Positions 21,858 through 39,257 of a DNA stretch of 40,919 nucleotides are shown piece after piece (positions within the stretch are counted from its first letter, which is position 1; each line of letters opens with the position of its first letter). The notes under the pieces were generated by a model. The model was not told the origin of the DNA. It did no database searches and saw only the letters and a program-made list of their open reading frames with translations. The stretch covers positions 1 to 40,919 of IMG/VR virus record IMGVR_UViG_3300030118_003239; one strand, given 5' to 3'. The translations under genes were made by a program, and so were the position numbers. The DNA is from a virus.

Positions 21858-21875
21858 GTTTTACCATAGGCTTGC

Positions 21876-21889
21876 AGCCTTATAAGGCT
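21876..21889 (-). promoter_or_regulatory. Palindromic TATA promoter of the Cas4-primase-nuclease unit
   Basis: AGCCTTATAAGGCT is a perfect 14-bp palindrome with TTATAA at 21880-21885. The TATA centre is 25.5 bases upstream of the Cas4-like ATG, so transcription should begin at or beside the start codon. On the transcribed side it is preceded by GAAA, resembling a BRE. It starts two bases after the TAG stop of the upstream gene. The palindrome could also bind a dimeric regulator. Confidence 0.7.
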
Positions 21890-21891
21890 TT

Positions 21892-22158
21892 CTACTCGTC
21901 CTTTTTGGCCGATTTCTTGGCCTTGGGCTTGGGGGCTGGCTTTGCGCTGTATTCGCTCCACCCTTCACCGAGAATTTCAAGCGCATTCTTCATGCTTTGC
22001 AGGTTTTGGATTGAGAGGATGTGGTTTCGGGGAAGTCCGGCAGATTGAGCATCACGCTCTTTCGTGCTGTCGGTAAGCCAATAAACGGCGTCCCCGCCAT
22101 GCTCGCTGACGGCGGCTTCAACATCGGCAACATCGGAAGAGTCCACAATAAATCGCAT
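21892..22158 (-). CDS. Hypothetical protein with Lys/Pro-rich C-terminus (88 aa)
   Basis: I do not recognise the family. The N-terminal 65 residues look like a small alpha/beta domain (MRFIVDSSDVADVEAAVSEH, VYWLTDS, then a helix IQNLQSMKNALEILGEG). The last 15 residues are a basic Lys/Ala/Pro tail (KPAPKPKAKKSAKK), as in proteins that contact DNA or acidic partners. It seems to be transcribed alone from its own TATA-like element. Confidence 0.6.
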   Translation of the reverse strand: MRFIVDSSDVADVEAAVSEHGGDAVYWLTDSTKERDAQSAGLPRNHILSIQNLQSMKNALEILGEGWSEYSAKPAPKPKAKKSAKKDE

Positions 22159-22182
22159 GATAACACCACATTGTATTTGTCG

Positions 22183-22190
22183 TTTAAATT
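22183..22190 (-). promoter_or_regulatory. TATA-like element (AATTTAAA) for the 88-aa gene
   Basis: AATTTAAA on the - strand is centred about 28 bases upstream of the ATG at 22158, compatible with a leaderless or very short leader. It overlaps the stop of the preceding gene. GTGGTG near the start is only a weak ribosome binding site. Confidence 0.45.
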
Positions 22191-22506
22191 ATTCCTCTTC
22201 TTCGTCCATCAGTTCACCGGTGAACGCTCGCTCGTCCCAAGGTTCAATGCGCTCTCCGCATTCAACGCACATGGGATTCACTTCAATGCCTTCCATTATG
22301 GGTCGCAAATTCACAACACCGCACGATTCGCACTTGATTTCCTCAACCTTGCCCAACTCCTTCAAAAGCGTGAACAGAAGGATATTGGTTCGTTGCATGT
22401 CGTGTGTGAACGCCATAGACAAACGCTCAACTTTGCCGCTCACTTCAAACAACGCTTGTGTGAGTTGGTTTTGGCTTAATTTTTTTTGTGGGCGAACACC
22501 GTTCAT
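22189..22506 (-). CDS. Coiled-coil plus zinc-ribbon protein (105 aa)
   Basis: The N-terminal half (residues about 12-55) is a long amphipathic helix with heptad spacing (LTQALFEVSGKVERLS, ILLFTLLKELGKVEEI). The C-terminal half is a zinc ribbon with CESC and CVEC knuckles about 18 residues apart, then a Glu-rich tail ending EEEE. A dimeric zinc-binding scaffold or regulator is plausible. No family is recognised. The ribosome binding site is AAGGGAC just before the ATG. Confidence 0.65.
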   Translation of the reverse strand: MNGVRPQKKLSQNQLTQALFEVSGKVERLSMAFTHDMQRTNILLFTLLKELGKVEEIKCESCGVVNLRPIMEGIEVNPMCVECGERIEPWDERAFTGELMDEEEE

Positions 22507-22536
22507 GTCCCTTCATCCCTTTCTATACCCACACAT

Positions 22537-22544
22537 CATATAAA
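22537..22544 (-). promoter_or_regulatory. TATA-like element (TTTATATG) for the coiled-coil zinc-ribbon gene
   Basis: TTTATA at 22544-22539 on the - strand is centred 35.5 bases upstream of the start at 22506. A transcript start about 9-10 bases before the ATG leaves room for the AAGGGAC ribosome binding site, so this one looks leadered. It lies in the 43-base gap after the methyltransferase stop. Confidence 0.45.
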
Positions 22545-22549
22545 CCTGT

Positions 22550-23611
22550 TTAAACCCAGTCGTGTAGCGTCTTGTAGGTGACCTCGGCCTCTTCAACCCA
22601 ATGTCCGATTCGGGCCTCGGCAATCGCAAGGTATTCTGCATCCATTTCTATTCCGATAAAATCAAACCCTTCAACCTTGGCGGCTATACCTGTCGTGCCG
22701 CTTCCCATGAAGGGGTCAAGCACAACGCCTCCCGGTGGTGTGACCAAACGACAAAGGTATTTCATCAAGTCCACAGGTTTGACGGTCGGATGGATGTTCT
22801 TCATCATCGGGGCGTTCTCCTTGCCCTGTTCAAGCCGCTTCTCCACACTTACTTTTCTCCCAATACCACCTGCGTTGTGTTGGGACTTCTTGTCCTCAAA
22901 CGCTTCAAGTCCAGCGTTGCGCTCGGCTTTGCTCGCCTTAGCGCAGTAAAAGAATCGGGCGTTTTCTTCGGGGAATAGGCTCACGACTTCATCCGAGCCA
23001 TCGTGAATGAAATTGGCGGGGAAGCGACCTTCAACCGGACGGGCCTCGCCATCGTCGTAGTTGTAGCCGCCTTGTGTGCCACCCCTTGATGCACCAGCCG
23101 TTGCGCTATCCCCGCTCCGTCCCTTGCCGCCCCAACCGACGACATCCGTTCCGATGCGGCAACCGTCAATGTTGATGCCGCCCGTACCATGTTCAAGCAC
23201 ATTCGCAACGAGCGTGCCGATAAGGGGCTTACGGGCGACGACAATAGGCTCATGGGCGGGTTTGAGGGCTGAACCCCACCCTTGCCATTCCTCGGCCTTG
23301 TGGCCTATGTTGTGAGACTTCGGGAAGCCCGAACCATAAACCCACATGATTTGGTCACGAATCTCAAAGCCAGCATCCTCAACATTGACGACAAGGCGGT
23401 GATAGGTGCGTGAACCAGCGAAGGCCAGCAGGTGTCCTCCGGGCTTTAACACACGAAGGCATTCACGCCATATCTCCACCGAGGGAACATCGTAGTCCCA
23501 TTTCTTTCCCATAAAAGAAAGACCATACGGAGGGTCGGTGACGATACTGTCTACCGAGTCGTCGGGAAGCCCTTTCAGCACGCTCAAACAATTACCTTCA
23601 AACAATTTCAT
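22550..23611 (-). CDS. DNA methyltransferase, beta-class, adenine-N6 type motif (353 aa)
   Basis: The catalytic motif IV DPPY lies at residues 26-29 (TDPPYGLSFMGKKWD), and the AdoMet-binding motif I (LDPFMGSGTTGIAA) at about 302-315. This order (IV before I) defines the beta class. DPPY points to N6-adenine modification, although N4-cytosine enzymes more often have SPPY. The middle (about 150-260) is a target-recognition region, Gly-rich, with unknown specificity. No cognate restriction gene is nearby, so it is an orphan that may protect viral DNA. Start ATG 23611 overlaps the PolB stop (ATGA). A longer in-frame start at 23668 would lie within PolB. Confidence 0.85.
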   Translation of the reverse strand: MKLFEGNCLSVLKGLPDDSVDSIVTDPPYGLSFMGKKWDYDVPSVEIWRECLRVLKPGGHLLAFAGSRTYHRLVVNVEDAGFEIRDQIMWVYGSGFPKSHNIGHKAEEWQGWGSALKPAHEPIVVARKPLIGTLVANVLEHGTGGINIDGCRIGTDVVGWGGKGRSGDSATAGASRGGTQGGYNYDDGEARPVEGRFPANFIHDGSDEVVSLFPEENARFFYCAKASKAERNAGLEAFEDKKSQHNAGGIGRKVSVEKRLEQGKENAPMMKNIHPTVKPVDLMKYLCRLVTPPGGVVLDPFMGSGTTGIAAKVEGFDFIGIEMDAEYLAIAEARIGHWVEEAEVTYKTLHDWV

Positions 23612-25905
23612 AACCAAGCCACCTGTGATTTTCCCTCCAAGGCACGATGCAACGGTGACATGTCCCACCCCGCCACTTCGTAGTAAGGCTGAACGCGATT
23701 GATGATGAACCGCTCAACCATCGTGCAGTAGCCTATTTCAGCGATACCTTCAATTTCCGATGGGTCGTCAAATGCAAGGTATTGCCCCTTCGGGTCAATA
23801 GCCACAAGGAAATAGTCGTTGGCACGGTAGCCCTTGCCGAGCGTCCTGTTGGCCCATTGTGCGCCAGCCGCAGAACCACTTACGCTTCGGTATTGGTCAA
23901 GGTTCTTCGCCAACTTACCCTTCATGCACAAATCCAAGGGGTCTATTTTTCCCCCAATAATACTCTCAATCGTTGACACCAGCAGGTCGGTGACTTGCTT
24001 TTCTTGGTGTCCGTTGAGGATGCCGTCAATGACTTGTCCCATCGTGTCTTTCATCACGGTTGGCATTCTTGTTTGCTTCAATTCAATGCCTTTCACATAT
24101 CGCTTGGGTTCGTGGCGTTCACCGTCTGTCCAACAGACAAGGCCAGCGTAACGATTCTTGCCCATGTAGATGAACGACGACGACCACTTCTCAAATTGAA
24201 CGATGATGGGGTACATCCGGTCGTTCATTTCCTCAAGCGACAACTTTCCCACACCGGGAGTCCGAACCCTGCACATCACCGAGTCGGTATGCCCGTAGAC
24301 GACGGGATGCCCCAAGTCCTCGGCAACTTCCTTCAACTTGAGCAAGGTTTGTCTTGAGGTAAAAGTGATTGCGGCGGCGATGTCGGGGTGATACAATCCG
24401 TATTTGGAATCACCAGCAACGCCATACATGGAAGCCACGAGGGACTTCGTGGCGTATTGCAGGGCATCGTAACGGTTCCTTTCTTCGTCTGTTTCCGCAT
24501 GTCTCATCATCACTTTGTAGTGGTCACGGAGAACCGTCATGTTGTCCATCTGCCGCACGAGCAACCCCTTCTTCTCTTGCGAGAACACCGTGCCGTTGCC
24601 ACAATCCTTGCCGTGCTGTTGCCACCATGTCTCGTCGGCCCCGTGGTTGGGTGACTTCAAGGTGTCCCACGAGATGTTGTAAAGGTCGGCGTTGCTGTGA
24701 TACATGGCTTTTACATCAAAAATACCGATGTTTTGGTAGATGCCCTTCTCGCCGTCCATAACGATTGCGCCGTCATAATTCACCTTGTCAAACATTGGTT
24801 TGGAAGGGATTTGTTTCTTGAATTCGGGGTCGCCCAAAGCAAGACAGGTAAAGACCTGCGTCACGAACGGCGTGCTACGGATTTCACATTGGGCGATGTG
24901 TTGCACGGCGATGAAATAATCAAGGGCGTTCACGAGTCCGTTCAACCGTGGCAACAGGCGTACATCCTGTCGGTTGTATTCAAGGTAAAGAATCGGGTCG
25001 GAGTAGTAGGTGTCGTGACCATCGGGCAACTCGGTTTTCTTTTCCCCTAAACATTCCAACGCCACATCGTCCAATTTGTAGTTCGGCAACTTGCCGTTCT
25101 TCAACTCCCACAACTTAGGGAAAGCAAGCCGCAAGTCAATGACATTTCTCCCGACGATGGGTTGCGCCCAATCACCGAAGTCGTAGCGAATGCGGTTGAG
25201 CGGCGACATGTTGGACGCACGAACACCCACTTTGTTGCACCGCTCAATTATTTGCTTCAAGTCTGCACCAGCGACATACCAGCCCGTGATGATGTCGGGG
25301 TCTTGCTTTCGCATGAACGCCGTGAAGTGAGTTAGCAATTCGGCTTCCGTGTCAAAGACGAGAACGGGTGTTTCGTAGGCATAACCGTTTCCCGACATAT
25401 CGTAAAGCGTGTGGTGCTTGCCCTTAGAAAGTCCTCCCCAATCGGGGTTCGGCGCACATTCGGATGGATGTTTCGGAGGAACCATCCACGAATAGAGGTT
25501 TTCCGTAAAACTATCAAAGACCGTAAGCATGGTGATTTGCCCGCTATCCGTCTTCCATTCGCCGTCAAGATACCAAACACGGTGCTTGTAGGAAGGAAAG
25601 GGTTTCTGCCCCTCCTTGACACGAGCCGCCAAGACTTGATTCGTGAGCGGGATGTTCCCCTCCCATGATTGACCGGTCTTGGCAAGGTTGCGAACGGCGT
25701 CCGTAGTGTAGCAAGTGACCTTCGTCAAAGGCTCACCGAAAACGCCTGTGTAGCCAGCCTCCTTCTTTTCATCAACGAATTGTGCATCCTCATCCCGTAG
25801 ATAGAGGTACGGTAGCCTGTCCTTGATTACCGTTTGTTGCCGCTTGTCGTTGACATCACGATACCGAACCAACACATCGTTGCGTCCGACTTGTTCCACT
25901 ATCAT
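23608..25905 (-). CDS. polB: Family B DNA polymerase with 3'-5' exonuclease domain (765 aa)
   Basis: The exonuclease motif I Asp-x-Glu is D114-G-E116 (WYLDGEWKTDS), motif II lies near PDIITGWYVAGADLK, and motif III is YNRQD. Polymerase motif A is DVKAMYHSNADLYNIS (about residue 395), motif B KSLVASMYG (about 483) and motif C YGHTDS (about 535). Family members usually have YGDTDS. Here the first Asp is His, but the second, metal-binding Asp remains. The KGxE-type motif follows (RYVKGIELKQTRMP). Length is typical of archaeal/viral PolB. It is the replicative polymerase, heading a unit with the methyltransferase, and has a TATA centred 25.5 bases upstream. Confidence 0.92.
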   Translation of the reverse strand: MIVEQVGRNDVLVRYRDVNDKRQQTVIKDRLPYLYLRDEDAQFVDEKKEAGYTGVFGEPLTKVTCYTTDAVRNLAKTGQSWEGNIPLTNQVLAARVKEGQKPFPSYKHRVWYLDGEWKTDSGQITMLTVFDSFTENLYSWMVPPKHPSECAPNPDWGGLSKGKHHTLYDMSGNGYAYETPVLVFDTEAELLTHFTAFMRKQDPDIITGWYVAGADLKQIIERCNKVGVRASNMSPLNRIRYDFGDWAQPIVGRNVIDLRLAFPKLWELKNGKLPNYKLDDVALECLGEKKTELPDGHDTYYSDPILYLEYNRQDVRLLPRLNGLVNALDYFIAVQHIAQCEIRSTPFVTQVFTCLALGDPEFKKQIPSKPMFDKVNYDGAIVMDGEKGIYQNIGIFDVKAMYHSNADLYNISWDTLKSPNHGADETWWQQHGKDCGNGTVFSQEKKGLLVRQMDNMTVLRDHYKVMMRHAETDEERNRYDALQYATKSLVASMYGVAGDSKYGLYHPDIAAAITFTSRQTLLKLKEVAEDLGHPVVYGHTDSVMCRVRTPGVGKLSLEEMNDRMYPIIVQFEKWSSSFIYMGKNRYAGLVCWTDGERHEPKRYVKGIELKQTRMPTVMKDTMGQVIDGILNGHQEKQVTDLLVSTIESIIGGKIDPLDLCMKGKLAKNLDQYRSVSGSAAGAQWANRTLGKGYRANDYFLVAIDPKGQYLAFDDPSEIEGIAEIGYCTMVERFIINRVQPYYEVAGWDMSPLHRALEGKSQVAWL

Positions 25906-25927
25906 GTAACACCCTTAGCGTGTAGGC

Positions 25928-25933
25928 TTATAA
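25928..25933 (-). promoter_or_regulatory. TATA promoter of the polB unit
   Basis: TTATAA preceded by GAAAGCC and followed by GCCTACAC on the - strand is nearly identical to the promoter of the Cas4-like gene. Its centre is 25.5 bases before the polB ATG. It begins 5 bases downstream of the TGA of the HTH gene. An AGGGTG close to the ATG could act as a ribosome binding site if the mRNA is slightly longer. Confidence 0.7.
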
Positions 25934-25938
25934 GGCTT

Positions 25939-26247
25939 TCATGTACGGCGTCCACGGCTACGGGTGGGGATTTTGTGTTTGGTGAGCCATTGATGTATGC
26001 TCATCGGCGTGATGCCGAATTGGTTTGCGATTTCCGCCATCGTTCGGTTCTTGCCGATGTATTCGCTCTCCAACCAGTCCTTGCGGTGGTAAAGAGGTTT
26101 AGCGGGTTTGACGAAGTGCTTGATTTCAACGACGAGAACATCTGCCTCGCCGCTGTTTATTTCATGCCTTTGGAAACCTGCTTCCGTAAATTGTGCGTCA
26201 CACACACGAACCCATTCGCCGCTGTTGGGGTCAATCACTTCAACCAT
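25939..26247 (-). CDS. Small helix-turn-helix protein (102 aa)
   Basis: Residues about 58-100 form a clear HTH with a basic tail (KNRTMAEIANQFGITPMSIH followed by WLTKHKIPTRSRGRR). This arrangement is common in resolvase-like and phage regulatory or HNH-associated DNA-binding proteins. The N-terminal 50 residues are a small beta-rich domain (WVRVCDAQFTEAGFQRHEI). It could bind viral promoters or DNA ends. It lies immediately upstream of the polB promoter and is alone in its transcription unit, so it is a candidate regulator of polB expression. Confidence 0.65.
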   Translation of the reverse strand: MVEVIDPNSGEWVRVCDAQFTEAGFQRHEINSGEADVLVVEIKHFVKPAKPLYHRKDWLESEYIGKNRTMAEIANQFGITPMSIHQWLTKHKIPTRSRGRRT

Positions 26248-26269
26248 GACACTACCACGCCCACGACCA

Positions 26270-26277
26270 ATATAAAA
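26270..26277 (-). promoter_or_regulatory. TATA box (TTTTATAT) for the HTH gene
   Basis: TTTTATAT on the - strand is centred 26.5 bases upstream of the HTH ATG at 26247. There is no ribosome binding site in the sequence between (GTGGTAGTGTC before the ATG), so a leaderless transcript is likely. Confidence 0.65.
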
Positions 26278-26287
26278 CCATTGATAC

Positions 26288-26464
26288 CTATTCTTCTTCT
26301 GAACTACGCAAACGAAAGATGTTCCTCGGCCTATCTGCCACCCTGTATATGCCGCATTGTCTTCTTACACCACCGCTTTTGACCTTGTGGTTGGTCATCC
26401 TTGTGACCCTAAGTTCCCCACAACCGGAGCAACGACGAAGGCACTTACGGGGCTGTCTGCTCAT
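26288..26464 (-). CDS. Small zinc-ribbon protein (58 aa)
   Basis: This gene was found by translating the gap upstream of the HTH gene. ATG 26464 follows GGGAGGCGAAG on the - strand, a good ribosome binding site, and overlaps the end of the preceding zinc-ribbon gene by 20 bases. Cysteines at 8, 12, 15 and 37 (CLRRCSGC and QCG) with basic residues around them suggest a zinc ribbon that contacts nucleic acid. It ends EEE. Function is unknown. Confidence 0.6.
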   Translation of the reverse strand: MSRQPRKCLRRCSGCGELRVTRMTNHKVKSGGVRRQCGIYRVADRPRNIFRLRSSEEE

Positions 26465-26576
26465 ACTTCGCCTCCCGTTCTAAGCGGCAACAGCGACCGC
26501 ACTTCGTTGGCGGTTTCGCCTTTGTCCAAGAAGTTCTCTTTCTTTTACCGCAAGATTCGCAGTCATACCAAACCAT
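26445..26576 (-). CDS. Small zinc-ribbon protein (43 aa)
   Basis: ATG 26576 directly abuts the TAG stop of the winged-helix gene (26579-26577). The product has two knuckles, CESC (residues 6-9) and CGRCC (27-31), with KRKRTSWTKAK between them, a compact basic zinc ribbon. It is the first of two adjacent zinc-ribbon genes in the clamp operon. No further function can be given. Confidence 0.6.
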   Translation of the reverse strand: MVWYDCESCGKRKRTSWTKAKPPTKCGRCCRLEREAKYEQTAP

Positions 26577-26897
26577 CTACTCCCTCCACCAGTATGTATG
26601 GGGTCTGTCAATGGAACGGTTGACGATTTTCATTCTTGTCATTGTGCTAAGAATCGTGCCGACTTGTTGGCAAGACATACCAACTGTTTTCGGTAGATAC
26701 TTTTCCGCTAAATCTGATATTTGCTTGGCGTTGAGGTATCGTCCGTCTGCGTCGTATTTCAGAACAGCGAGACAAGCCAACTTGAGGTAGGAACGGCGCA
26801 TAGAAACCCTGTCGCCCATCTTGTTAAGCAACATTTCAACCTGCTCGTTGTTCAACAACTTCAAAGTGCCGTTTCTAACCTTGCTTGCTTCGGGCAT
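26577..26897 (-). CDS. Winged-helix-like regulatory protein (106 aa)
   Basis: From MPEASKV the product is helical, with a winged-helix pattern at residues about 40-100: helix (RRSYLKLACLAVLKY), a second helix around NAKQISDLAEKYL, recognition-helix-like CQQVGTILSTMTRM, and a wing (KIVNRSIDRPHTYWW). The frame extends upstream to a GTG at 26993 but gives a Cys-rich unlikely segment. ATG 26897 has GAGTTGAT before it, and its initiation region matches that of the clamp gene for 15 bases. The 143-base gap to the clamp gene contains TTTAAA at 27002-27007, a possible weak promoter. Confidence 0.6.
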   Translation of the reverse strand: MPEASKVRNGTLKLLNNEQVEMLLNKMGDRVSMRRSYLKLACLAVLKYDADGRYLNAKQISDLAEKYLPKTVGMSCQQVGTILSTMTRMKIVNRSIDRPHTYWWRE

Positions 26898-27040
26898 AAA
26901 AATCAACTCAAAACAACAGGCGGGGGAAAAGGCGCAAGAGGGAACCAACCCCTTGACACATGGAGGAAAGCCGATGAAAGCCAACAAACACACTTCGCAC
27001 CTTTAAACTGCACCGTTCTTGTGTAAAACCCCCATGTTGT

Positions 27041-27886
27041 TCAATTCAATGCTCCCGCCGCCCAAGCCCATTCGCCGTTGCCGAAGGAAACGGAAAAACG
27101 GATGCCTTGGCCGTGTTCACGGAAGTCAAAGAAATTCAAAGTTGCTTTGCCGGTAAAACCCTTGAAGAGTTCATCAAGGCCACCGTCAAAGTCCCAAGTG
27201 AAATCGGATAGGGGTTTCATAGCCCCACCCTCAACGGGTATGATGGTGGTCGTTTGTCCGAGCATCGGGTCACCAACGGTGATTTCAATTTCAAGGGCTT
27301 CTTCCAAATTAACCTTGAAGGTGTACCGGTTAAGGCGTTGGCCGTTGATGTTGTCGCATCGGCAAGCATCGTAAAGGTCGGAGACATTTACCTCAAAGGA
27401 ACAGAACGAATGTTGCTTGGAACCGTCACCCAAGGTGTAGATGCCGTTCTTGGCATCAATTTTGTTTGCGAGCGTTTCCGAGCGAAGGTTGAAATCCTTG
27501 ATGGTTTCTTGACTGTGTGTAAATGCTTTTGCGTCAAAAGAAGAGTCAAGCGTGGTTTGTTTGCCCGTGGACTTGAAACGCAATTTGCCCGCCTCCCCTG
27601 CGTAGTTGTCATAAGTCAACACGAGGTTTTCGCTGTGGAGAGAAAGAACACCAAGCACACGGTCAATGTCGGGGATGGGTATGTTTCCCGCCCCACCACA
27701 GTCGGCAACAACTTCGGTAAGACCTGTCAAATCACGGGTAAGACTCGTGATTCTCGCCTTGCTTCCGTCGCACAACAACACACAGGATTCAACCTGCGCC
27801 TGTTGCTTGCCGTTGACAGTCTGCTTGCGCTTGCTGATGTTCAACATGCGCTTGAGTTGAGTATTGCTGATACTTACTGTTGGCAT
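27041..27886 (-). CDS. PCNA-like sliding clamp (281 aa)
   Basis: The protein is a two-domain beta-rich polypeptide without catalytic motifs. A short helix carries SNTQLKRMLNISKR and an inter-strand segment reads IPIPDIDRVLGVLSLHSENL, like the clamp segment around the first domain helix. The C-terminal domain contains a PCNA-type helix plus strand set (SDFTWDFDGGLDELFKGF, ATLNFFDF, IRFSVSFG). It is somewhat longer than cellular PCNA (about 250 residues). The neighbours (RecA-like ATPase, SSB, PolB, RFC) support a replication clamp that tethers PolB. ATG 27886 is chosen; the TTG at 27895 lies within the ribosome binding region AGGTTGAT. Confidence 0.6.
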   Translation of the reverse strand: MPTVSISNTQLKRMLNISKRKQTVNGKQQAQVESCVLLCDGSKARITSLTRDLTGLTEVVADCGGAGNIPIPDIDRVLGVLSLHSENLVLTYDNYAGEAGKLRFKSTGKQTTLDSSFDAKAFTHSQETIKDFNLRSETLANKIDAKNGIYTLGDGSKQHSFCSFEVNVSDLYDACRCDNINGQRLNRYTFKVNLEEALEIEITVGDPMLGQTTTIIPVEGGAMKPLSDFTWDFDGGLDELFKGFTGKATLNFFDFREHGQGIRFSVSFGNGEWAWAAGALN

Positions 27887-27891
27887 AAAAA

Positions 27892-28107
27892 TCAACCTGC
27901 GAGATAGTGGGAAAAGGTCATTCCCGGTTTTTCATACTGCTCTTGAATTTCCTTGACGGCTTGATATAGGGCAGTCATTTTGGGTAGGTCGTCAAGGATA
28001 ACTTCAAGGTCTGCGATTCGTGATTTTAGCAGGCGTATTTGCGTGTCTTGAGTCTTGAGAATGTGACACAAACTGTCAAACGCTTCTTGCGCTGTCTGTT
28101 GCATCAT
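27892..28107 (-). CDS. Small coiled-coil protein (71 aa)
   Basis: Residues about 8-55 form a continuous heptad helix (FDSLCHILKTQDTQIRLLKS, then RIADLEVILDDLPKMTALYQ), ending in a Pro/Gly-containing tail. Two adjacent ATGs (28107, 28104) can serve; GGAAGTGA lies just before. It sits between the RecA-like ATPase and the clamp. A small dimerising accessory is the natural reading, with no assigned partner. Confidence 0.55.
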   Translation of the reverse strand: MMQQTAQEAFDSLCHILKTQDTQIRLLKSRIADLEVILDDLPKMTALYQAVKEIQEQYEKPGMTFSHYLAG

Positions 28108-28108
28108 T

Positions 28109-29041: not shown

Positions 29042-29063
29042 GTTTTATCCTTCCTTTGTAGCC

Positions 29064-29069
29064 TTATAA
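29064..29069 (-). promoter_or_regulatory. TATA promoter of the RecA-like/clamp unit, overlapping the chaperonin stop
   Basis: On the - strand this is TTATAA followed by GGCTACAA, centred 25.5 bases before the ATG at 29041. The last codon (TTA) and the TAA stop of the chaperonin gene make up this TATA box exactly. GGAAGG lies between it and the ATG and could serve as a ribosome binding site if the transcript began further upstream. Confidence 0.65.
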
Positions 29070-31850: not shown

Positions 31851-31889
31851 TGTATCGCTTCCTTGTATTTTTCGGGTGTTTTTGTGGGG

Positions 31890-31895: not shown

Positions 31896-31898
31896 GGC

Positions 31899-32804: not shown

Positions 32805-32932
32805 CAGCGGTTCACCATCCTATCGCATTCAAAGCACCAAAGAACTGCTCGCTTGGTCTTCTTCACAGAATAACCCATAACTCTATCACATAGCGAACAG
32901 TTAATCGTGTGTTTGCCTTTGCTGATTTTCAT
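32804..32932 (-). CDS. Small zinc-ribbon protein coupled to RFC (42 aa)
   Basis: The gene was read from the gap upstream of RFC. The product has CSLC (residues 12-15) and CFEC (33-36) with a basic stretch between (SVKKTKRAV). ATG 32932 immediately follows the preceding TGA, and the stop overlaps the RFC start. Small zinc ribbons next to clamp loaders may be structural or regulatory; nothing more can be said. Confidence 0.65.
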   Translation of the reverse strand: MKISKGKHTINCSLCDRVMGYSVKKTKRAVLWCFECDRMVNR

Positions 32933-33019
32933 TCATTCTTCCTCCCGTGTGTAGTCCTTCTCTCGTTTGAAACCAAGCCTCGCCCACAAAGCGCGTCCGA
33001 GCATGGAACCCCTGCTCAT
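32933..33019 (-). CDS. Tiny basic protein (28 aa)
   Basis: A 28-codon frame from ATG 33019, overlapping the previous stop by 4 bases (ATGA) and abutting the next ATG, encodes MSRGSMLGRALWARLGFKRE and then KDYTREEE. The only support is its exact fit in a chain of coupled genes. It may be real or a translational relay. Confidence 0.35.
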   Translation of the reverse strand: MSRGSMLGRALWARLGFKREKDYTREEE

Positions 33020-33171
33020 TGGATGTACCCTCCAAAAGCAAAGTCCATTTCACAATACAAACAGGCCGGTTCTGCAACGGAAATGACTTCGCCGTCACAA
33101 TACTCGCACAATTTCAAACCCCGTTTCTTGAGTATTCTTAGGGTAAAATAACGAGCGACACGGGAAATCAT
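33016..33171 (-). CDS. Small zinc-ribbon protein (51 aa)
   Basis: ATG 33171 overlaps the previous TGA (ATGA) and its own stop overlaps the next ATG. The product begins with a basic helix (VARYFTLRILKKRGLKL), then CEYC (22-25) and CLYC (37-40), a zinc ribbon. A competing 65-codon frame (33098-32901) is rejected because it is unlike any protein. This reading is supported by the cysteine spacing and coupling. Confidence 0.6.
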   Translation of the reverse strand: MISRVARYFTLRILKKRGLKLCEYCDGEVISVAEPACLYCEMDFAFGGYIQ

Positions 33172-33350
33172 CGGTGTCCATCTCCTACCCTAAAGGTGAT
33201 AAGATTTGAACAGGTTCCACAATGAAGATACATGTAATTCTTGTGGTCTACGAAGGTTCGGATTCGCACAGTCCATGTCCCATGCGGGTCACGGCAGTTA
33301 GGGCATTTCACACCTTGGTCGGCAATCATTCGCCTCGCGTATTCGCTCAT
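33168..33350 (-). CDS. Zinc-ribbon protein with basic N-terminus (60 aa)
   Basis: The real start is ATG 33350, which overlaps the previous stop by four bases. A longer frame up to 33458 would overlap most of that gene. The product has CPNC (about residues 15-18) and CGTC (44-47), separated by strands (WTVRIRTF, YMYLHC), a classical zinc ribbon as in transcription or replication factors. Function is unknown. Confidence 0.65.
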   Translation of the reverse strand: MSEYARRMIADQGVKCPNCRDPHGTWTVRIRTFVDHKNYMYLHCGTCSNLITFRVGDGHR

Positions 33351-33586
33351 TCTCCGCCCTCCTTCTCGCCGTAGATGTAGTCGTACAGTAATGCAATCTG
33401 TTCGTTCGTAAGGTTTGTCCAAATGTAGCGTAGTGGGGCGTTTCGGAACAAGTACCATTGACCTTGAAGGAAGTCCTTATCCGTAGAATTGGGGTAAAAC
33501 AATTTAGCGAACGAATGCCGGTTCAAGCGTTGGCTGTATTTCAAGTCCATGATGATTTCCAAAAAGTTGTCAAAGCCCATGTTCAT
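33347..33586 (-). CDS. Hypothetical small protein (79 aa)
   Basis: ATG 33586 overlaps the previous stop (ATGA). The longer frame to 33607 is not needed. The product is aromatic-rich (RHSFAKLFYPNSTDKDFLQG, WYLFRNAPLRYIWTNL) and mainly helical, with an acidic C-terminus. It has no Cys motif. It may be a compact DNA-mimic or regulatory protein, but no family is recognised. Confidence 0.55.
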   Translation of the reverse strand: MNMGFDNFLEIIMDLKYSQRLNRHSFAKLFYPNSTDKDFLQGQWYLFRNAPLRYIWTNLTNEQIALLYDYIYGEKEGGE

Positions 33587-33786
33587 CCCTCCATGTCCAA
33601 TACCCAACTAATATGTTGTTCAAGGTTAATACCGAATCTGTTTTGGTAGGCGTTGAGAAAATCGTAGGTTGCCTCGGAACCACAGGATTCAACCATGCTC
33701 TCAATGTCGCTCTTTTCCCATTCGTCCATTTTGGCCGGTGCGATGTAGCAGGCAAGTCGTGTCATGTCCCGATAACTCATGTTCAT
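33583..33786 (-). CDS. Hypothetical small protein (67 aa)
   Basis: ATG 33786 is coupled to the previous stop (ATGA) and its stop overlaps the next ATG. The product starts MNMSYRDMTRLACYIAPA and has two amphipathic helices (DEWEKSDIESMVESCGSEA, TYDFLNAYQNRFGINLEQHI). No zinc pattern. It shares the MNM- start type with the 79-aa neighbour, which may reflect duplication of the initiation region. Function is unknown. Confidence 0.55.
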   Translation of the reverse strand: MNMSYRDMTRLACYIAPAKMDEWEKSDIESMVESCGSEATYDFLNAYQNRFGINLEQHISWVLDMEG

Positions 33787-34205
33787 TCCTCCAAAAAGTC
33801 TGCAAGCACCATCTTCTCGTTTCGGCCAGCGGGTGTGTGTTTCCTTCGCTCGTTGATGTCGCCCTTCAATGTAGGGGTAAAAGGCTTCTCGTCGGCGGCT
33901 TGGGAGAAACCGTCGCCCGACCAAAAGCGAAGCGAACAGAAATACGGAGTCTTGACGGTGGAGCGTCGGAACGCAGGGAACATGACCATCCATGTAGCCT
34001 TCAACCGCTCGCCGTTGACAAGGCGCACAGACTCGGCAGTAAAAATGTAGCCGCCGCTTCGGTGGTTGGTTTTGTGGATTGCTTTAATGACAAAACCACC
34101 TGTGCCTGTTGGGAACGAGCGGGTGTCAAATCGTAGGGATTGCGCCTTGAATTGTGGGACAGTCAACTTCTGTCCGACTTTGTATGGGCTTCGCTTGACG
34201 GTCAT
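33783..34205 (-). CDS. Hypothetical basic protein (140 aa)
   Basis: The product is basic, with alternating beta strands (KLTVPQFKAQSLRFDTRSF, GGFVIKAIHKTN, GGYIFTAESVRLVNGERLKA, WMVMF, PYFCSLRFWSG) like a small nucleic-acid-binding beta-barrel. Its C-terminal end is helical. No family is recognised. The stop overlaps the next start; ATG 34205 immediately follows the TGA of the rubredoxin-like gene. Confidence 0.55.
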   Translation of the reverse strand: MTVKRSPYKVGQKLTVPQFKAQSLRFDTRSFPTGTGGFVIKAIHKTNHRSGGYIFTAESVRLVNGERLKATWMVMFPAFRRSTVKTPYFCSLRFWSGDGFSQAADEKPFTPTLKGDINERRKHTPAGRNEKMVLADFLEE

Positions 34206-34334
34206 TCAGCACTCCCTCCCTTCGGGGTTGTTCGTTCCGCATGAAGGGCAAGAAGGGACTTTCATGCCTCGGTGCAAATCAGCACCCTCTTCATATTCGT
34301 AGCCACAGCATGTTAATTCGTATTGCTTCTTCAT
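34206..34334 (-). CDS. Rubredoxin-like zinc-ribbon protein (42 aa)
   Basis: The gene was read from the gap between 34205 and 34337. The product has YELTCCGYEYEEGAD followed by PSCPSCGT: the Y-x-L-T-C-x-C/CGY half of rubredoxin and the CPSCG second knuckle (C29, C32), with an extra Cys10. AAAGGAGG precedes the ATG, a strong ribosome binding site. True rubredoxin has CxxC first, whereas here the two Cys are adjacent (9, 10), so metal binding may be atypical. Confidence 0.65.
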   Translation of the reverse strand: MKKQYELTCCGYEYEEGADLHRGMKVPSCPSCGTNNPEGREC

Positions 34335-34336
34335 GT

Positions 34337-34573
34337 TCAGTCCTCCTTTTGTTTGTAGTCTGCGTGGTTGTGGGGAAGGCGATGTTGACGACGAACCATG
34401 AGGTTGCGAATCAACTTGGCGACATTTGCCGCCCCGCTTTTGAATCGCTTCTCGCTGGCTTCGTCAGCCACCATAGCGTCGTATAGGTCTTCAAGAGGTA
34501 TGTTGTTCAACACCTCTTTCAACACCTCATACTCAACATGTGGTATGGTCTGCGCCCTGTTTCCCTTGCTCAT
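34337..34573 (-). CDS. Hypothetical small protein heading operon C (78 aa)
   Basis: This is the first gene after the TATA box at 34595-34602. The protein is helical, with an acidic helix (HVEYEVLKEVLNNIPLEDLY) and a basic second half (KRFKSGAANVAKLIRNLMVR). There is no ribosome binding site (GCCTATGTGTATATATG), so it fits a leaderless start. It may bind DNA or another protein, function unknown. Confidence 0.6.
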   Translation of the reverse strand: MSKGNRAQTIPHVEYEVLKEVLNNIPLEDLYDAMVADEASEKRFKSGAANVAKLIRNLMVRRQHRLPHNHADYKQKED

Positions 34574-34594
34574 ATATACACATAGGCGAAGCCC

Positions 34595-34602
34595 TTTATA
34601 TA
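34595..34602 (-). promoter_or_regulatory. TATA box (TATATAAA) for operon C (small zinc proteins to RFC)
   Basis: TATATAAA on the - strand has its centre 25.5 bases upstream of the ATG at 34573, and no ribosome binding site lies between. This is the clearest case of leaderless architecture in the window because there is no alternative initiation signal. Confidence 0.7.
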
Positions 34603-34617
34603 CTTATCGGTCTGCGA

Positions 34618-35067
34618 CTAAGACTGATTTTGAACACGATGACACGACAGGCATTCGTCTTTGTTTGTAGGGAAAATTCTTGTTCTGCCACAACCACATT
34701 TCCTCGCCACCGCTCTTTCGGATGGAGTCATCGTTGAGGGTTCAAGGATGAACGGTATGTCGTCAACACTAAGAACGATTTCACGGTCAAGGTCATACAA
34801 GGCATGTTGGCTTTTTACGCCGACGATGTTCTCAACTGTTTTTTTACCGACAATAATAATGCTACTTGATTTGCACAACAACGCTGAAAGAGAATGGGGA
34901 GAAGGAACACGGTTTATCCCCTTGTGGTGGGCTAAGTGGTTCGCCACATCCTCCTTCGTTGATGCCCCATGTTCCCACAAAGCGTACAGAATCGCACGAC
35001 GAATACGGCTGTTCGTTGCGCTCATCATTTGTGTTATATTTGCATCCAATTTAAGCGTGCCGAACAT
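34618..35067 (-). CDS. Winged-helix protein with C-terminal zinc knuckle (149 aa)
   Basis: The N-terminal 65 residues form a winged-helix-like unit (NSRIRRAILYALWEHGASTK, EDVANHLAHHKGI, PSPHSLSALLCKSS, then a wing with IIIVGKKT). A beta-rich middle follows, and the C-terminus has CGC and CLSC (CGCGRTRIFPTNKDECLSC), a zinc-binding loop. Together they indicate a transcription regulator, possibly TFB/TFE-like in design but not homologous on what I can see. It is the last gene of operon B. ATG 35067 abuts the previous TGA. Confidence 0.6.
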   Translation of the reverse strand: MFGTLKLDANITQMMSATNSRIRRAILYALWEHGASTKEDVANHLAHHKGINRVPSPHSLSALLCKSSSIIIVGKKTVENIVGVKSQHALYDLDREIVLSVDDIPFILEPSTMTPSERAVARKCGCGRTRIFPTNKDECLSCHRVQNQS

Positions 35068-35244
35068 TCATAGGTCATACCACATCAGCGCGTTCATGTC
35101 GTGCGGCATTGGCTCCCCCTCATCGTTCTTGGTTTGACCCGTGGGTTTCATGCCACGAAGACTCTCAATATACATGTGCGTATCAAATATCCTCTTAAAA
35201 GAAATCCAAGTGACGAGAAAAATTGAAACCCACACTACAACCAT
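35068..35244 (-). CDS. Small membrane-anchored protein (58 aa)
   Basis: The gene was read from the gap between 35067 and 35235. The N-terminal segment (MVVVWVSIFLVTWISF) is a hydrophobic anchor or uncleaved signal, with KR after it. The rest (about 38 residues) is polar with Pro and Met, presumably cytoplasmic. Its ATG is 10 bases inside the end of the upstream gene, and its TGA is directly followed by the next ATG. Function is unknown. Confidence 0.6.
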   Translation of the reverse strand: MVVVWVSIFLVTWISFKRIFDTHMYIESLRGMKPTGQTKNDEGEPMPHDMNALMWYDL

Positions 35245-35906
35245 TGGGAAACCTTCTCTTGACGCTTCTTGACCGTCTTCGGAAGGTCTTCAATGTTTTC
35301 TACTCTCAAAGAATTTCTCTCATCAACATCTACCTCAATGATTTTACGCCAATACTTATCCGATGAACGAAAACGACTTGGACGCTCGTCACCAGCCTTC
35401 TTTTTCTTGGGCCACTTGACGGCGTTTCGGGAGGGTTTGATACCGTAGACCATCACAGCCTCGGCGTATTCGGTGGGGAGTGTGAAGGCGACATCTGCGA
35501 GCATCCTCCACAACCGAATATCGTCCTTTTTGTTTTCTCGTAAAAATGACAAGGCAAGCGGGATTGGCATACCCGTGAACGCACGATGAACTCTTGACCT
35601 GTCCGACCAGCGCAGGAGGGCGTCAATCTGTCGCTTGTGGTTGGTCTTTTCTTTGAGAAGGGACTTGTCAATTATCACGGCTTCCTTCGTGGCTTCCGAG
35701 AGCGAAGGCAACTTCTCAACGACAACCACCAAGCGATAACCGACAACATCCATCCACCTCTTGATTTCTTTTTCCGTTATCTTTCTTAGGTGGACGATGT
35801 AGGTTATATCTGTTCGTGTAGGAGCGTGTACGAACCCGCCAGTCTCAATGAAATGGCCCTGCTTGTAGGCTCGCTCATCAGCCGTCAATATAACGATTCC
35901 CTTCAT
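35235..35906 (-). CDS. Conserved-looking basic protein, candidate replisome partner (223 aa)
   Basis: I do not recognise the family. The start MKGIVILTADERAYKQGHF (ATG 35906) is preferred over an in-frame upstream start. The product has an alternation of strands (DITYIVHLRK, YRLVVVVEK) and a helical C-terminal half (QIDALLRWSDRSRVHRAFTG, PIPLALSFLREN, WRMLADVAFTLPTEYAEAVM). The layout resembles the AAA-less delta-like subunit of clamp loaders, where an N-terminal P-loop-like fold lacks motifs and is followed by helical domains, but that is only a hypothesis. The C-terminus is very basic (KWPKKKKAGDERPSRFRSS). It sits downstream of the helicase. Confidence 0.5.
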   Translation of the reverse strand: MKGIVILTADERAYKQGHFIETGGFVHAPTRTDITYIVHLRKITEKEIKRWMDVVGYRLVVVVEKLPSLSEATKEAVIIDKSLLKEKTNHKRQIDALLRWSDRSRVHRAFTGMPIPLALSFLRENKKDDIRLWRMLADVAFTLPTEYAEAVMVYGIKPSRNAVKWPKKKKAGDERPSRFRSSDKYWRKIIEVDVDERNSLRVENIEDLPKTVKKRQEKVSQWL

Positions 35907-36165
35907 AGTAACCACCAAACGGGTTTGTTTCCAAAATGTGTGTCTCAAAGACTTTCATTTGATGAACGCTGATTCCCCACAACTCACGAACATGCTTGCG
36001 AATGACCTTGTATTCGCCGTGATACCACACGATACCCTTCTCCGTGATTTCAGCGTGTAGACCGTCTTCTTTCATCGCTCTCACCAAGAACGGGTACTCT
36101 ATCTTCTTGATTGGTCTTGAATACAGGCTCTTGACAGCCCCGCTTCTCCATTTCTTTTGCGGCAA
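35878..36165 (-). CDS. Hypothetical basic protein (95 aa), TTG start
   Basis: The frame could begin at a TTG at 36180, but TTG 36165 lies 6 bases after GGGAGGA, so the mature start is MPQKKWRSGAVKSLYSRPIK. The product is basic with a beta-like core (GIVWYHGEYKVIRKHV) and a C-terminal helix plus Gly/Tyr stretch. It overlaps the next gene by 29 bases. It may bind nucleic acid. Function is unknown. Confidence 0.5.
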   Translation of the reverse strand: MPQKKWRSGAVKSLYSRPIKKIEYPFLVRAMKEDGLHAEITEKGIVWYHGEYKVIRKHVRELWGISVHQMKVFETHILETNPFGGYYEGNRYIDG

Positions 36166-36167
36166 AA

Positions 36168-36791
36168 TCAATCCTCCCAATCAACATCAACAACCGTCGT
36201 AGGTGGCTTCAACGCCGCCACCTGCATTTCTATTTGGTCAAGCAACTGCGGCTCGTGGCGTAGCGTGTTGACAAGAACACCCATGACCCCATCCATTTGT
36301 CTTTGCGCTAAAAGAAGTTGAGAGTCAACGCCGATTTCCTTCTTGAGTTGTCCGACGAGTCTTAGGGATGTGTTGGCCTGTGCAACCAACTTCGCCGCAT
36401 CAGCGACCCAATCCGAAGTGATGCCTCCCTCGCTGTCCTTGACAGCCTCCAACTCGTCAATCCAACCAAGAAGGCGGCTCACGATGTCCTGTGCGGCGTC
36501 CAGCGTATTGATGCTCTCATACCGCATCGTCTCCATGTGCTTTGCCTCTTCGGGGTCATAATCAACATGCTCGTCCATGTGCGTCATAACCGTCCCGACG
36601 GGCCACGAATACTTCTCTTCAAGGTAGGCGACGGTGGTTTCTCCATTGTGGACTCCCACCTCCAACTCACGGCGATTGGCGATGCCACACATGGGACAGT
36701 CCGGCGTATTCAACACCCAACGCAGGGTTTCAATCGTCAAGGCGTTGGCTTCGCCAGCAAGTCGTTGTTCAATCTCACGCCTCGTTCTCAT
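36168..36791 (-). CDS. Zinc-HTH DNA-binding protein, candidate small terminase (207 aa)
   Basis: The N-terminal 75 residues contain a Cys pair (PDCPMCGIANRRELEVGVHN) followed by an HTH-like segment (YLEEKYSWPVGTVMTHMDEH). Phage proteins with this small zinc-HTH start are often annotated as small terminase subunits or DNA-binding regulators. The C-terminal 120 residues are long helices (SINTLDAAQDIVSRLLGWID, VAQANTSLRLVGQLKKE), as needed for oligomerisation. It is next to the helicase, far from the virion genes. The start is ATG 36791 with GGGGTGAG before it (a GTG nine bases earlier is less likely). A replication regulator is the main alternative. Confidence 0.5.
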   Translation of the reverse strand: MRTRREIEQRLAGEANALTIETLRWVLNTPDCPMCGIANRRELEVGVHNGETTVAYLEEKYSWPVGTVMTHMDEHVDYDPEEAKHMETMRYESINTLDAAQDIVSRLLGWIDELEAVKDSEGGITSDWVADAAKLVAQANTSLRLVGQLKKEIGVDSQLLLAQRQMDGVMGVLVNTLRHEPQLLDQIEMQVAALKPPTTVVDVDWED

Positions 36792-38115
36792 CGTTCTCAC
36801 CCCACTTTTGTTTTGCTTGGCTTGGGTCGGTCAGCGGCCCGATACGGCACATGACACCCTTTCGCCCACGCCCCTTACTTTTAGGGGTGTATTCAGCATA
36901 CCACGGTTGACCTTTGAGGTTGTCGTCAATCCAACGCTTGGCGGCGGTGTAGTCGCCCTTAGTGATGATTCGTGCGATTTCCTTCAACAAAGTGGAACGG
37001 GTTATGTCTTGCATCCAAAACGCATCACGGATGAGCCGTGCGTCGGAGTCCATGACAGACCGCCTCATCATCAGCGCAGACTCAAGCAAAGCAAGCAACT
37101 TCTCATCCAACTCAATTTTCAGAACTTGATTGCCAACCCATTCTTCTTTTAGCATAGAATAACCGATGGCAAGGCGGCGGAACAAGTCGGCTTCAAATGA
37201 ACGCAGGTCGGGACGGTTGAGCCAATGCCCCAACTCATCGCTGAACTGCACACCGCTTGGGGGGTCAAAGATGGCTTCAAGCATACGGGTGTTGACCCAA
37301 TTACGGATGTTGATAACTTCGGTTGCGAGAGCGGCGCGAGTCTCCCGTGTCATGTTTGACTGCATGTGTTGAGCGTGTTTGTATTGTGCTTCCTTCTCCG
37401 GCGACATTTCAATGTCAATGATGAATAGGCGACGGTCAAGACCGGACTCCATTTCAAGACGGCTCGGTTGCGTCCCGCCCCACATGGTATAACGGGTATT
37501 GTATTGTACCCACCCACTACGCATGGCTTTCTGAACTCGCCCGTTGTCAAGAGAAGTAAGCAGTTGGTTTTTCATGTCGGTGCTGTGGTCTTTTTTGTTG
37601 GCGTCGGTGAGCGACGACGATTCCTCAAAGCCGAGGAAGCCGCCGCACATTTCACGGGCGAGGGGACGGCCCATGATGTTGCCATCCTCGTCTACGGAGC
37701 CAAACATGCCAGCCTCCGTGATGCTGTTCGGTCCCATCATTGTACGGAAGCCTTCGCCGGTGTTGAAAGCCGTGGGGCTGTAAAGGATGCCTGTTCCTTC
37801 TGAAAGGAACATATTGATGAGCATACTTTTACCGGAACCCTTTTCTCCACGCATGAGGATGTGAATGCGGGTGTCGGCAAGTTGCGACATCGGCGTGTAG
37901 ATGGGAGGGTTGTCGTGTCGCAAGGGACAGTTCGGGATATTGAAGTCGGCATTATGCAGGGGGTGAAAATCGCACCGACTACACTTGTTTATGGCGTTGA
38001 ATATGTGCGCCCCTATGGAACATGCGAAGATGGGTATTTTGTCCTCCACATCAACATAGAAGTTGTTCTGTGCGAAACGAACCAACCGGTCAATAATCCT
38101 CGTCAGACCATCCAC
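36775..38115 (-). CDS. MCM-like AAA+ replicative helicase (446 aa)
   Basis: Walker A is GEKGSGKS (residues 90-97). Walker B is GGFLGFEE. The sensor-1 region reads MWGGTQPSR, and the Arg-containing box SGLDRRLFIIDIEM is similar to the MCM LSRFDL segment. Between Walker A and B lies SPTAFNTGEGFRTMMG, then a helix after the Walker B, as in MCM-type AAA+ proteins. The N-terminal part has a Cys/His cluster (C45, C48, C63, H51, H54), probably a zinc site. It is shorter than cellular MCM (about 650-700). It probably unwinds DNA for the viral replisome. Start GTG 38115 overlaps the PAC2-like gene by 13 bases; its ribosome binding site is weak. Confidence 0.75.
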   Translation of the reverse strand: MDGLTRIIDRLVRFAQNNFYVDVEDKIPIFACSIGAHIFNAINKCSRCDFHPLHNADFNIPNCPLRHDNPPIYTPMSQLADTRIHILMRGEKGSGKSMLINMFLSEGTGILYSPTAFNTGEGFRTMMGPNSITEAGMFGSVDEDGNIMGRPLAREMCGGFLGFEESSSLTDANKKDHSTDMKNQLLTSLDNGRVQKAMRSGWVQYNTRYTMWGGTQPSRLEMESGLDRRLFIIDIEMSPEKEAQYKHAQHMQSNMTRETRAALATEVINIRNWVNTRMLEAIFDPPSGVQFSDELGHWLNRPDLRSFEADLFRRLAIGYSMLKEEWVGNQVLKIELDEKLLALLESALMMRRSVMDSDARLIRDAFWMQDITRSTLLKEIARIITKGDYTAAKRWIDDNLKGQPWYAEYTPKSKGRGRKGVMCRIGPLTDPSQAKQKWGENDENEA

Positions 38116-38849
38116 GCCCCTTCATCGTCGTCGGAAAAGAACCGTTGGTCGTTCAACTGGTCTTCCATGTTTCTGATTGTTTTTATGGTGTTTTTAGCCT
38201 TGGTGTGGTCGTAGGAGAACCCCATAGCGACGAACCAATCGCGCACCAACTTCAACGCCTCGGTGTCAATGAATTGCCCCTCATCTTGAGTGACACACAT
38301 GCAAGAAGATTTGAGGCCCATGCGATGTGCTATGAAAGGAAAAATCCATGCGGGAGGGGCAAGAATCATGTCCTTCTCCGGCTGAACCGTTTGGAAATCG
38401 TGAACCAAAATTTCACTTTGTTCGTCGGGACTCGTCATGTTCATGGATGTCACAAACGATATGGTTTCGCAACCGTGCGATTTCAGCCCAATGATGATGT
38501 CACGAATCATTGGATAAGCAACCGACCACATTTCGGTGTTCGCCCCCATTTCAAGAGTGAACTGCGGCCAGTTGGTGATAGCAAGCATCGCCGTTCTTTT
38601 GTTTATCTGCGTCAATGTCCAAGCGGGACTCAACAACTTGGGGAGTTGGTTGAAGGCGTCTACGCATTGATGGCGGGACATGATTTCAACTGCCGGTTTA
38701 TTTTTACCCTCAAGAGACTTACCTACAATCAAAGGGATGAAACCATACTCACCCTCAACATAAACAATGACATTCTTTGGCGCAAAGAAAAGACCGTCTT
38801 TCGGTTTCTCCTTGAAGTAGAAATCAACCGAGCCGTACTGTTCAATCAT
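38103..38849 (-). CDS. PAC2-like protein (proteasome assembly chaperone family), 248 aa
   Basis: The start MIEQYGSVDFYF (ATG 38849) is used because AGGAG lies 8 bases before it. Two other ATGs upstream lie inside the previous gene. The middle shows strand-loop-helix units (TAMLAITNWPQF; YPMIRDIIIGLKSHGCETIS). The end (about 165-235) closely follows the C-terminal PAC2 pattern: an aromatic turn, FIAHRMGLKSSCMCVTQ, FIDTEALKLVRDWFVAMGF, then KAKNTIKTIRNMEDQL. In PAC2 proteins the corresponding part reads like G-L-x-x-x-x-L, D-x-x-A-A, and a long final helix. Archaeal PAC2 relatives act with proteasome assembly or quality control. A viral copy is unusual. The assignment rests on pattern alone. 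Confidence 0.45.
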   Translation of the reverse strand: MIEQYGSVDFYFKEKPKDGLFFAPKNVIVYVEGEYGFIPLIVGKSLEGKNKPAVEIMSRHQCVDAFNQLPKLLSPAWTLTQINKRTAMLAITNWPQFTLEMGANTEMWSVAYPMIRDIIIGLKSHGCETISFVTSMNMTSPDEQSEILVHDFQTVQPEKDMILAPPAWIFPFIAHRMGLKSSCMCVTQDEGQFIDTEALKLVRDWFVAMGFSYDHTKAKNTIKTIRNMEDQLNDQRFFSDDDEGAWMV

Positions 38850-39228
38850 CCAAAGCACTCCTAACGGCATGACGAACAAAGGTTGGCATCCTATCCAGCG
38901 AGCGTATTGTTTTTTTACCGGAAACATAAGCGTCAATGATTTCATCAAGGGACTTCGTATCAACGACACAAACATACCTTGCGTTCTTGATACCCAACTG
39001 TTTGCTTGACTTTTCGGTTCTCATGAGCGTGTCGTTGATTCTGTCGTACCATCCCACGCGCTTGAACAGACCGGACGACAGAAGGGCTTGCGTCATGTTA
39101 GCGAGGCTTGGAGCCGTGCCGTGCGTAGTCATGATGTGTTCTCGGATGAAGTCAGTTCTTTGCTCGCCTGCCTGCGTGACAAAAAAGAATGCTCTCTCAA
39201 CAAGTCGTGCGTTACCTCTACGGCCCAT
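38842..39228 (-). CDS. Helical DNA-binding-like protein, first gene of operon B (128 aa)
   Basis: The protein is helical with a winged-helix-like arrangement in residues about 20-65 (QRTDFIREHIMTTHGTAPS, LANMTQALLSSGLFKRVGWY) and a strand (ARYVCVVDTKSLDEIIDAYV). It could bind the adjacent promoter. No family is recognised. It has AGGATAAG upstream, but the TATA centre is 25.5 bases from the ATG, so a leaderless message is favoured. Confidence 0.55.
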   Translation of the reverse strand: MGRRGNARLVERAFFFVTQAGEQRTDFIREHIMTTHGTAPSLANMTQALLSSGLFKRVGWYDRINDTLMRTEKSSKQLGIKNARYVCVVDTKSLDEIIDAYVSGKKTIRSLDRMPTFVRHAVRSALDD

Positions 39229-39250
39229 GTCTTATCCTATGCTTGTGGGG

Positions 39251-39257
39251 TTATAAA
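39251..39257 (-). promoter_or_regulatory. TATA promoter of operon B (HTH-like protein to winged-helix protein)
   Basis: On the - strand TTTATAA is followed by CCCCACAAGC, the same downstream bases as at the SSB promoter. The TTATAA centre lies 25.5 bases before the ATG at 39228. This promoter drives the MCM-like helicase gene and the genes following it. Confidence 0.7.

Follow-up and report, generated by a model that had tools for sequence, protein, structure and literature searches.

TATA boxes at a fixed distance from the start codon and predicted leaderless transcription in the early module of an uncultured virus

In a virus contig of 40.9 kb, analysed over its whole length (the window), many early genes carry a TATA box 25-27 bases upstream of the ATG. 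Leaderless transcription is very probably the best reading of these locked promoters, their start sites being predicted. The spacing, its bimodal distribution, a pyrimidine at -1, the conservation among orthologs, a clade-specific tag 3' of the box and the restriction to the early strand are properties of the sequence itself. Promoters placed so that transcription starts on the start codon are known in archaea; to our knowledge, neither their use in lock-step nor the clade tags had been known from such uncultured viruses.

The window is an incomplete genome, while near-full-length relatives reach 55-72 kb. It probably belongs to a marine virus with an archaeal host. Two modules lie on opposite strands (Table 1). 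The early module encodes a PD-(D/E)XK nuclease (Pfam PF12705, E 9e-19), an N6/N4 methyltransferase, a family B DNA polymerase (PolB), an AAA ATPase, a TCP1/cpn60 chaperonin, an RFC-like clamp loader and an ERCC4-type nuclease. No leaderless TATA promoter was found in the late module.

Table 1. Modules and early promoters of the window. Distances run from the hexamer centre to the A of the ATG on the minus strand.
Feature	Position	Strand	Gene or content	Hexamer and distance (nt)
Late/structural module	1..19091	+	Tail proteins (minor tail protein, tape measure); Shine-Dalgarno starts predominate	
Early/replication module using predicted leaderless promoters	20955..40558	-	Minus-strand gene array at about 19-40.5 kb	
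TATA box and clade tag TTATAAGGCTGCA	21873..21885	-	PD-(D/E)XK nuclease (start 21857)	TTATAA at 21880-21885, 25.5
Box TTTAAA	22183..22188	-	Gene 21892-22158	27.5
TATA box TTTATAT	22538..22544	-	Gene 22189-22506	34.5 (34.5/35.5)
TATA box and tag TTATAAGCCTACA	25921..25933	-	PolB (start 25905)	TTATAA, 25.5
TATA box TTTATAT	26270..26276	-	Gene 25939-26247 (HNH/HTH-like)	TTTATA/TTATAT, 26.5/25.5
TATA box and tag TTATAAGGCTACA	29057..29069	-	AAA ATPase (start 29041)	TTATAA, 25.5
TATA box and tag TTATAACCCCACA	31883..31895	-	Leadered gene, start 31850	TTATAA, 42.5
TATA box TATATA(AA)	34597..34602	-	Gene 34337-34573; without Shine-Dalgarno	TATATA, 26.5
TATA box and tag TTATAACCCCACA	39244..39256	-	Gene 38842-39228	TTATAA, 25.5 (TTTATA, 26.5)

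The original prediction placed a TATA box exactly 25.5 bases upstream of five starts. This distance was recovered at 21857, 25905, 29041 and 39228; at 34573 it depends on the framing, and 25.5 is reached if the box is taken as the octamer TATATAAA. The boxes expected at 26.5 upstream of 26247 and at about 28 upstream of 22158 were located as well, and every box on the earlier list lies within one base of the distance given for it. The promoter of 22506, whose leader is predicted to span about 8 nt (GAAGGGAC), was missing from that list. In the AAA promoter, the final TAA of the box is also where the chaperonin gene upstream terminates, serving as its stop codon. A ribosome binding site had been described as absent at 34573 and 26247, which holds for the former and very nearly for the latter. 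Upstream of the predicted start site, Shine-Dalgarno-like letters persist at 29041 (GGAAGGAT), 39228 (AGGAT) and 22158 (GTGGTG). Two starts had been assigned a TATA box at about 43 bases together with a ribosome binding site, and both agree with the measurements: the leader of 31850 contains AAGGAAG, and start 6636 on the plus strand has TTAAAT about 43.5 bases before the ATG and GGTGA near the start.

The minus strand at 19075-40919 contains ten TATA clusters, seven of them with an ATG at 25.5 or 26.5, compared with a mean of 0.17 and a maximum of 2 such matches in 1000 dinucleotide shuffles. The ATG of one match, that upstream of 22506, is out of frame, leaving six real gene starts. On the late plus strand of the window, none of three TATA clusters has an ATG at the locked spacing. 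The boxes could in principle be chance AT-rich words in gaps of about 30 nt, the spacing following from compact gene packing. This explanation is refuted by the shuffles, the late genes, the pyrimidine at -1 and a conservation reaching down to about 45% protein identity, and its probability is negligible, in keeping with the original view that the repeated distance is hard to explain by chance.

Searches with PolB, the AAA ATPase, the nuclease and gene g36775 yielded 186 related loci. Distances were counted to the leftmost ATG of conserved ORFs from a simple ORF caller, using one gene per 70% cluster. The TATA box was found at 25 (23 genes), 26 (18) and 27 (5), once in the range 28-33, and beyond that at distances spread broadly between 34 and about 50. 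By script class, the 635 non-redundant conserved genes comprised 47 at 24-27, 1 at 28-32 and 39 at 33-50. With all related loci pooled and both strands included, 231, 245 and 119 ATGs occurred at offsets of 25, 26 and 27 from a TATA box, against mostly 25-80 elsewhere. The enrichment anticipated for related genomes was thus observed. A box in the near-empty zone at 28-33 would give a leader of about 2-7 nt, over-long for strictly leaderless initiation and too short for Shine-Dalgarno pairing, for which a minimum of 8 nt has been proposed (as cited in PMC7531240). The leaderless class was confined to the early strand (66/823 vs 0/97 on the late strand, p 0.0007); this and the other p-values are optimistic, since start codons were predicted and non-redundancy was set by protein clusters, which correct for relatedness only in part. 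A separate set of 16 late-gene loci gave no leaderless excess on the late strand.

The distance is also conserved within gene families. It amounted to 25-27 in 32 distinct orthologous PolB promoters, down to about 45% protein identity, and in 42 AAA, 18 nuclease and 18 RFC orthologs. All 16 orthologs of gene 26247 keep 25-27, with C always at -1, and all 7 of gene 39228 keep 25-26. Gene 22158 has 27 in 12 of 17 orthologs, and gene 22506 exactly 34 in 20 of 29. Spacing in the leadered 31850 family is free, ranging from 35 to 50. Despite the locked distance, the spacer letters diverge to as little as 10-20% identity in the PolB, AAA, nuclease and 26247 families. It is the distance and not the spacer letters that is constrained, which argues for selection holding the box at one of two distances from the ATG, 25-27 bases or no less than 34. 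TATA-less orthologs in the AAA, nuclease and RFC families mostly have A or G at -1, and a Shine-Dalgarno-like sequence is often present in orthologs lacking the box.

A pyrimidine at -1, a base that played no part in site selection, was found in 96% (45/47) of locked genes and 42% (221/531) of box-less genes (Fisher p 3e-14). This C/T pattern is the archaeal pyrimidine-purine initiator as read from the sequence, with +1 predicted on the A of the ATG. An A at -10 is present in 70% of locked genes, in agreement with the PPE described for Thermococcus (PMC5316973). Starts are almost exclusively ATG (310 ATG to 8 GTG in a redundant count). Leaderless mRNAs account for 72% in Haloferax volcanii and 69% in Saccharolobus solfataricus, and they occur in Thermoplasma (PMC7531240, PMC4983044, PMC5316973). 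The locked genes share with archaeal leaderless genes a TATA box whose centre lies about 26 nt upstream of the start codon, the pyrimidine at -1 and purine at +1, an A/W near -10, the AUG start and, in part, a reduced Shine-Dalgarno signal. They differ in belonging to an uncultured virus group, in being limited to the early module, in the ortholog-locked spacing and in the near-empty range 28-33, and they are known from sequence alone.

Shine-Dalgarno 5-mers were detected in 14/65 locked genes (22%) and in 155/377 (41%) of box-less genes near an upstream gene (p 0.002). The depletion is partial, and the AAA family retains a strong Shine-Dalgarno sequence (AGGAGG or GGTGA). A good Shine-Dalgarno sequence kept by some locked genes is evidence against leaderless initiation, as a leaderless RNA would not contain it; read-through from the upstream gene would explain its retention. 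The same ATG might then be used in two ways, leaderless from its own promoter and Shine-Dalgarno-read on read-through mRNA. Such dual use, which is compatible with leaderless transcription, has somewhat less than an even chance of being correct. It agrees with the median gap to the upstream gene, at 35 nt barely enough for a promoter, with the Shine-Dalgarno-like letters in 22% of locked genes, and with 111 Haloferax genes having both leaderless and leadered transcripts (PMC4983044), but the Shine-Dalgarno frequency in locked genes shows no difference between near (0.22) and far (0.19) upstream genes.

Alternatively, transcription may begin about 8-12 bases upstream of the ATG and produce very short Shine-Dalgarno leaders, the fixed distance then reflecting a TATA-to-Shine-Dalgarno geometry. 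Some locked genes, e.g. the AAA orthologs, have Shine-Dalgarno-like letters between -13 and -7, which fit this proposal. It requires, however, a start about 15 bases from TATA instead of the archaeal geometry of roughly -26 (PMC5316973), it does not predict the pyrimidine at -1, and the families of 34573 and 26247 lack a Shine-Dalgarno sequence. Together with the 12 nt added in the 34573 family when such a sequence appears, these points make it very improbable. The G-rich letters at -9/-8 were considered as a pure Shine-Dalgarno signal and rejected as such, because a GG excess of modest size also occurs at that place in TATA-aligned leadered promoters (17/49 vs 8.8 expected, p 0.002); part of the signal may belong to the promoter. 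A leader motif spotted by eye, AAAATTTTGGG, was dropped with 1 exact match.

Both initiation modes attributed to the virus were encountered, the leadered one with free spacing in the 31850 family and the two side by side among orthologs of gene 34573. Six of these, the window included, have the leaderless form. In six others the box is retained and still lies 25-27 bases from that codon position, where the codon is no longer ATG; GAGGCAG- or GAGGCGAG-type letters follow, and an ATG lies about 12 nt downstream. The family appears to switch mode by replacing the AUG at +1 with a Shine-Dalgarno sequence and a downstream AUG while the box is retained.

Five window promoters have tag A, TTATAASSCYRCA, in common, a pattern with 0 occurrences in 100 shuffles. 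Tag patterns were defined after inspection of the promoters, and clades were assigned from how similar the proteins of the related loci are (protein identity) and not from a tree. Window-like loci contain 94 copies of tag A (28 distinct contexts, 691 kb). The tag of clade B, TATATASTGSCG, occurs 65 times (46 distinct) in 393 kb and that of clade C, TTATATGCG, 40 times (30 distinct) in 419 kb. None of the three tags crosses between clades A, B and C; a few copies occur in the other viral loci. Orthologous promoters bear the tag of their own clade: A or B in PolB, A, B or C in gene 31850, and A or C in AAA. Leadered promoters such as that of 31850 carry the tag too, which makes it a feature of the promoter rather than of the start codon. 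As an extended promoter sequence shared by several non-orthologous early genes, it is a candidate virus-wide early promoter motif. An origin as host promoter feature was rejected, since in 2.5 Mb of host DNA the full tags A and B do not occur and tag C is rare (3 matches). One MGIIb genome showed a weak AGTG excess after the box (14 vs 4.6), the only pointer toward a host feature. A shared trans-acting factor is the simplest cause, and the tag probably labels the early promoters of one virus for it. More tentatively, a viral transcription factor might bind the tag and coevolve with it, tags being swapped in concert at orthologous promoters, and this factor might allow the canonical viral TATA promoters to prevail over weaker host boxes (TTCAA/TTCAT/TTGAA) or to be set apart from them in time.

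Virus-wide early promoter motifs are known from Sulfolobales viruses, including the SIRV2 early genes (PMC11065993), and SIRV1/2 have a GTC motif downstream of TATA (PMC5569661). The virus-specific motifs of rudiviruses are precedents for the tags. Here as there, non-orthologous early genes share a core promoter with virus-specific flanks, including 3' of TATA. The present viruses belong to another order and probably infect another host phylum; their tag is attached directly to TATA and is found at replication genes, and orthologous promoters of different clades have exchanged one tag for another. HVTV-1, a haloarchaeal tailed virus (Druskaviridae), likewise combines PolB, a RecB-like nuclease, HNH, a methyltransferase and RFC in one module. 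Its PolB is 23% identical to that of the window, in line with about 23% for haloarchaeal tailed viruses, but the gene lacks a TATA box at 25-27 and has GGTGATTAG instead. Magrovirales, viruses of Poseidoniales, have replication and morphogenesis modules in opposite directions and a stated genome size of 90-110 kb (PMC12999244). Compared by description, the window shares with them the opposite modules, PolB and the PD-(D/E)XK nuclease, whereas the longest relatives found here measure 55-72 kb. No magrovirus was among the phage-collection matches listed. It is plausible from gene content and module layout that the window virus is a magrovirus.

Poseidoniales chromosomes were located via a published Marine Group II 16S primer. 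Each has one strong TBP gene, with a weak second TBP-like match in 2/6; a TBP gene was found in none of 10 virus records. The spacing seen in the viruses recurs on these chromosomes with weaker boxes (TTCAA/TTCAT/TTGAA). In one MGIIa genome, TTCAA, TTCAT, TTGAA or TTATA starting 28-30 nt before the ATG is enriched 3.6- to 6.7-fold over background, and a pyrimidine at -1 occurs in 89% vs 61%. Leaderless initiation is probably a trait of the presumed Poseidoniales host that the virus uses. Unlike the weaker host boxes, the virus appears to concentrate on canonical TTATA. A PolB search of genome contigs revealed no relative linking virus and host, and the open-access papers searched contained nothing on TATA in connection with magrovirus, nor on leaderless transcription in Marine Group II.

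From these features we infer the start site itself, the translation mode, the host and the trans-acting factor. The core promoters would be canonical for archaea, with a BRE-like A-rich stretch, TATA at -26, A at -10 and a pyrimidine-purine initiator. Their placement would let host TBP, TFB and RNA polymerase begin transcription at the first base of the ATG. The resulting mRNA would have no leader, or one of one to two bases, and would be translated by the leaderless route. A box at least 34 bases away would give a leader of 8 or more bases, with room for a Shine-Dalgarno sequence. As each promoter fits into an intergenic gap of about 30 bases, every early gene could be driven alone within the packed array.

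No description of transcription in these viruses and their presumed hosts was found in the literature searched. For uncultured viruses of the Poseidoniales type, and for the hosts presumed for them, promoters and start codons would be fixed by a rule read from the sequence: a pyrimidine precedes the ATG, and the box lies 25-27 or no less than 34 bases away, hardly ever 28-33. The switch in the 34573 family may serve as a natural experiment on the interconversion of leaderless and Shine-Dalgarno initiation. Early promoters of Sulfolobales viruses served to find anti-defence genes (PMC11065993), and the clade tags would offer a handle on early gene sets and possible viral regulators.

Members of the g22506 family, named after a minus-strand gene of the window, carry the TATA box at exactly 34 bases from the ATG in 20 of 29 orthologs. 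From this distance a leader of 8 nt is predicted, which would consist almost entirely of the Shine-Dalgarno sequence. An excess of GG, located 16–19 bases past the TATA centre, extends to long-leader promoters of related viral loci (e.g. L182, L049, L107), and this dinucleotide is possibly an additional core promoter element.

The early module includes a virus-encoded chaperonin gene, matching PHROG 5725 (GroEL) with an E-value of 2e-93 and Pfam Cpn60_TCP1 with one of 1e-40. A pattern search detected the chaperonin in only 9 related loci. Its TAA stop codon is located inside the TATA box of the downstream AAA gene, thus the same bases are common to both genes.

Coordinates of the features
Feature	Sequence	Position
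g22506 family	window	22189-22544
AAA TATA box containing the chaperonin TAA stop	window	29064-29069
Chaperonin gene	window	29064-30596
Weak second TBP-like match	G006:C6	5735-6199
Weak second TBP-like match	G004:C8	223658-223843

Two of six genomes of Poseidoniales, the presumed hosts, contain a weak TBP-like match (TATA-binding protein) besides the main TBP. In loci from two Poseidoniales genomes (G001, L273-L292 and L331-L370; G002, L306-L308 and L384-L390), TTCAA, TTCAT or TTGAA at -28 to -30 appears to serve as the chromosomal promoter box, apparently a TATA variant with a C/G substitution.
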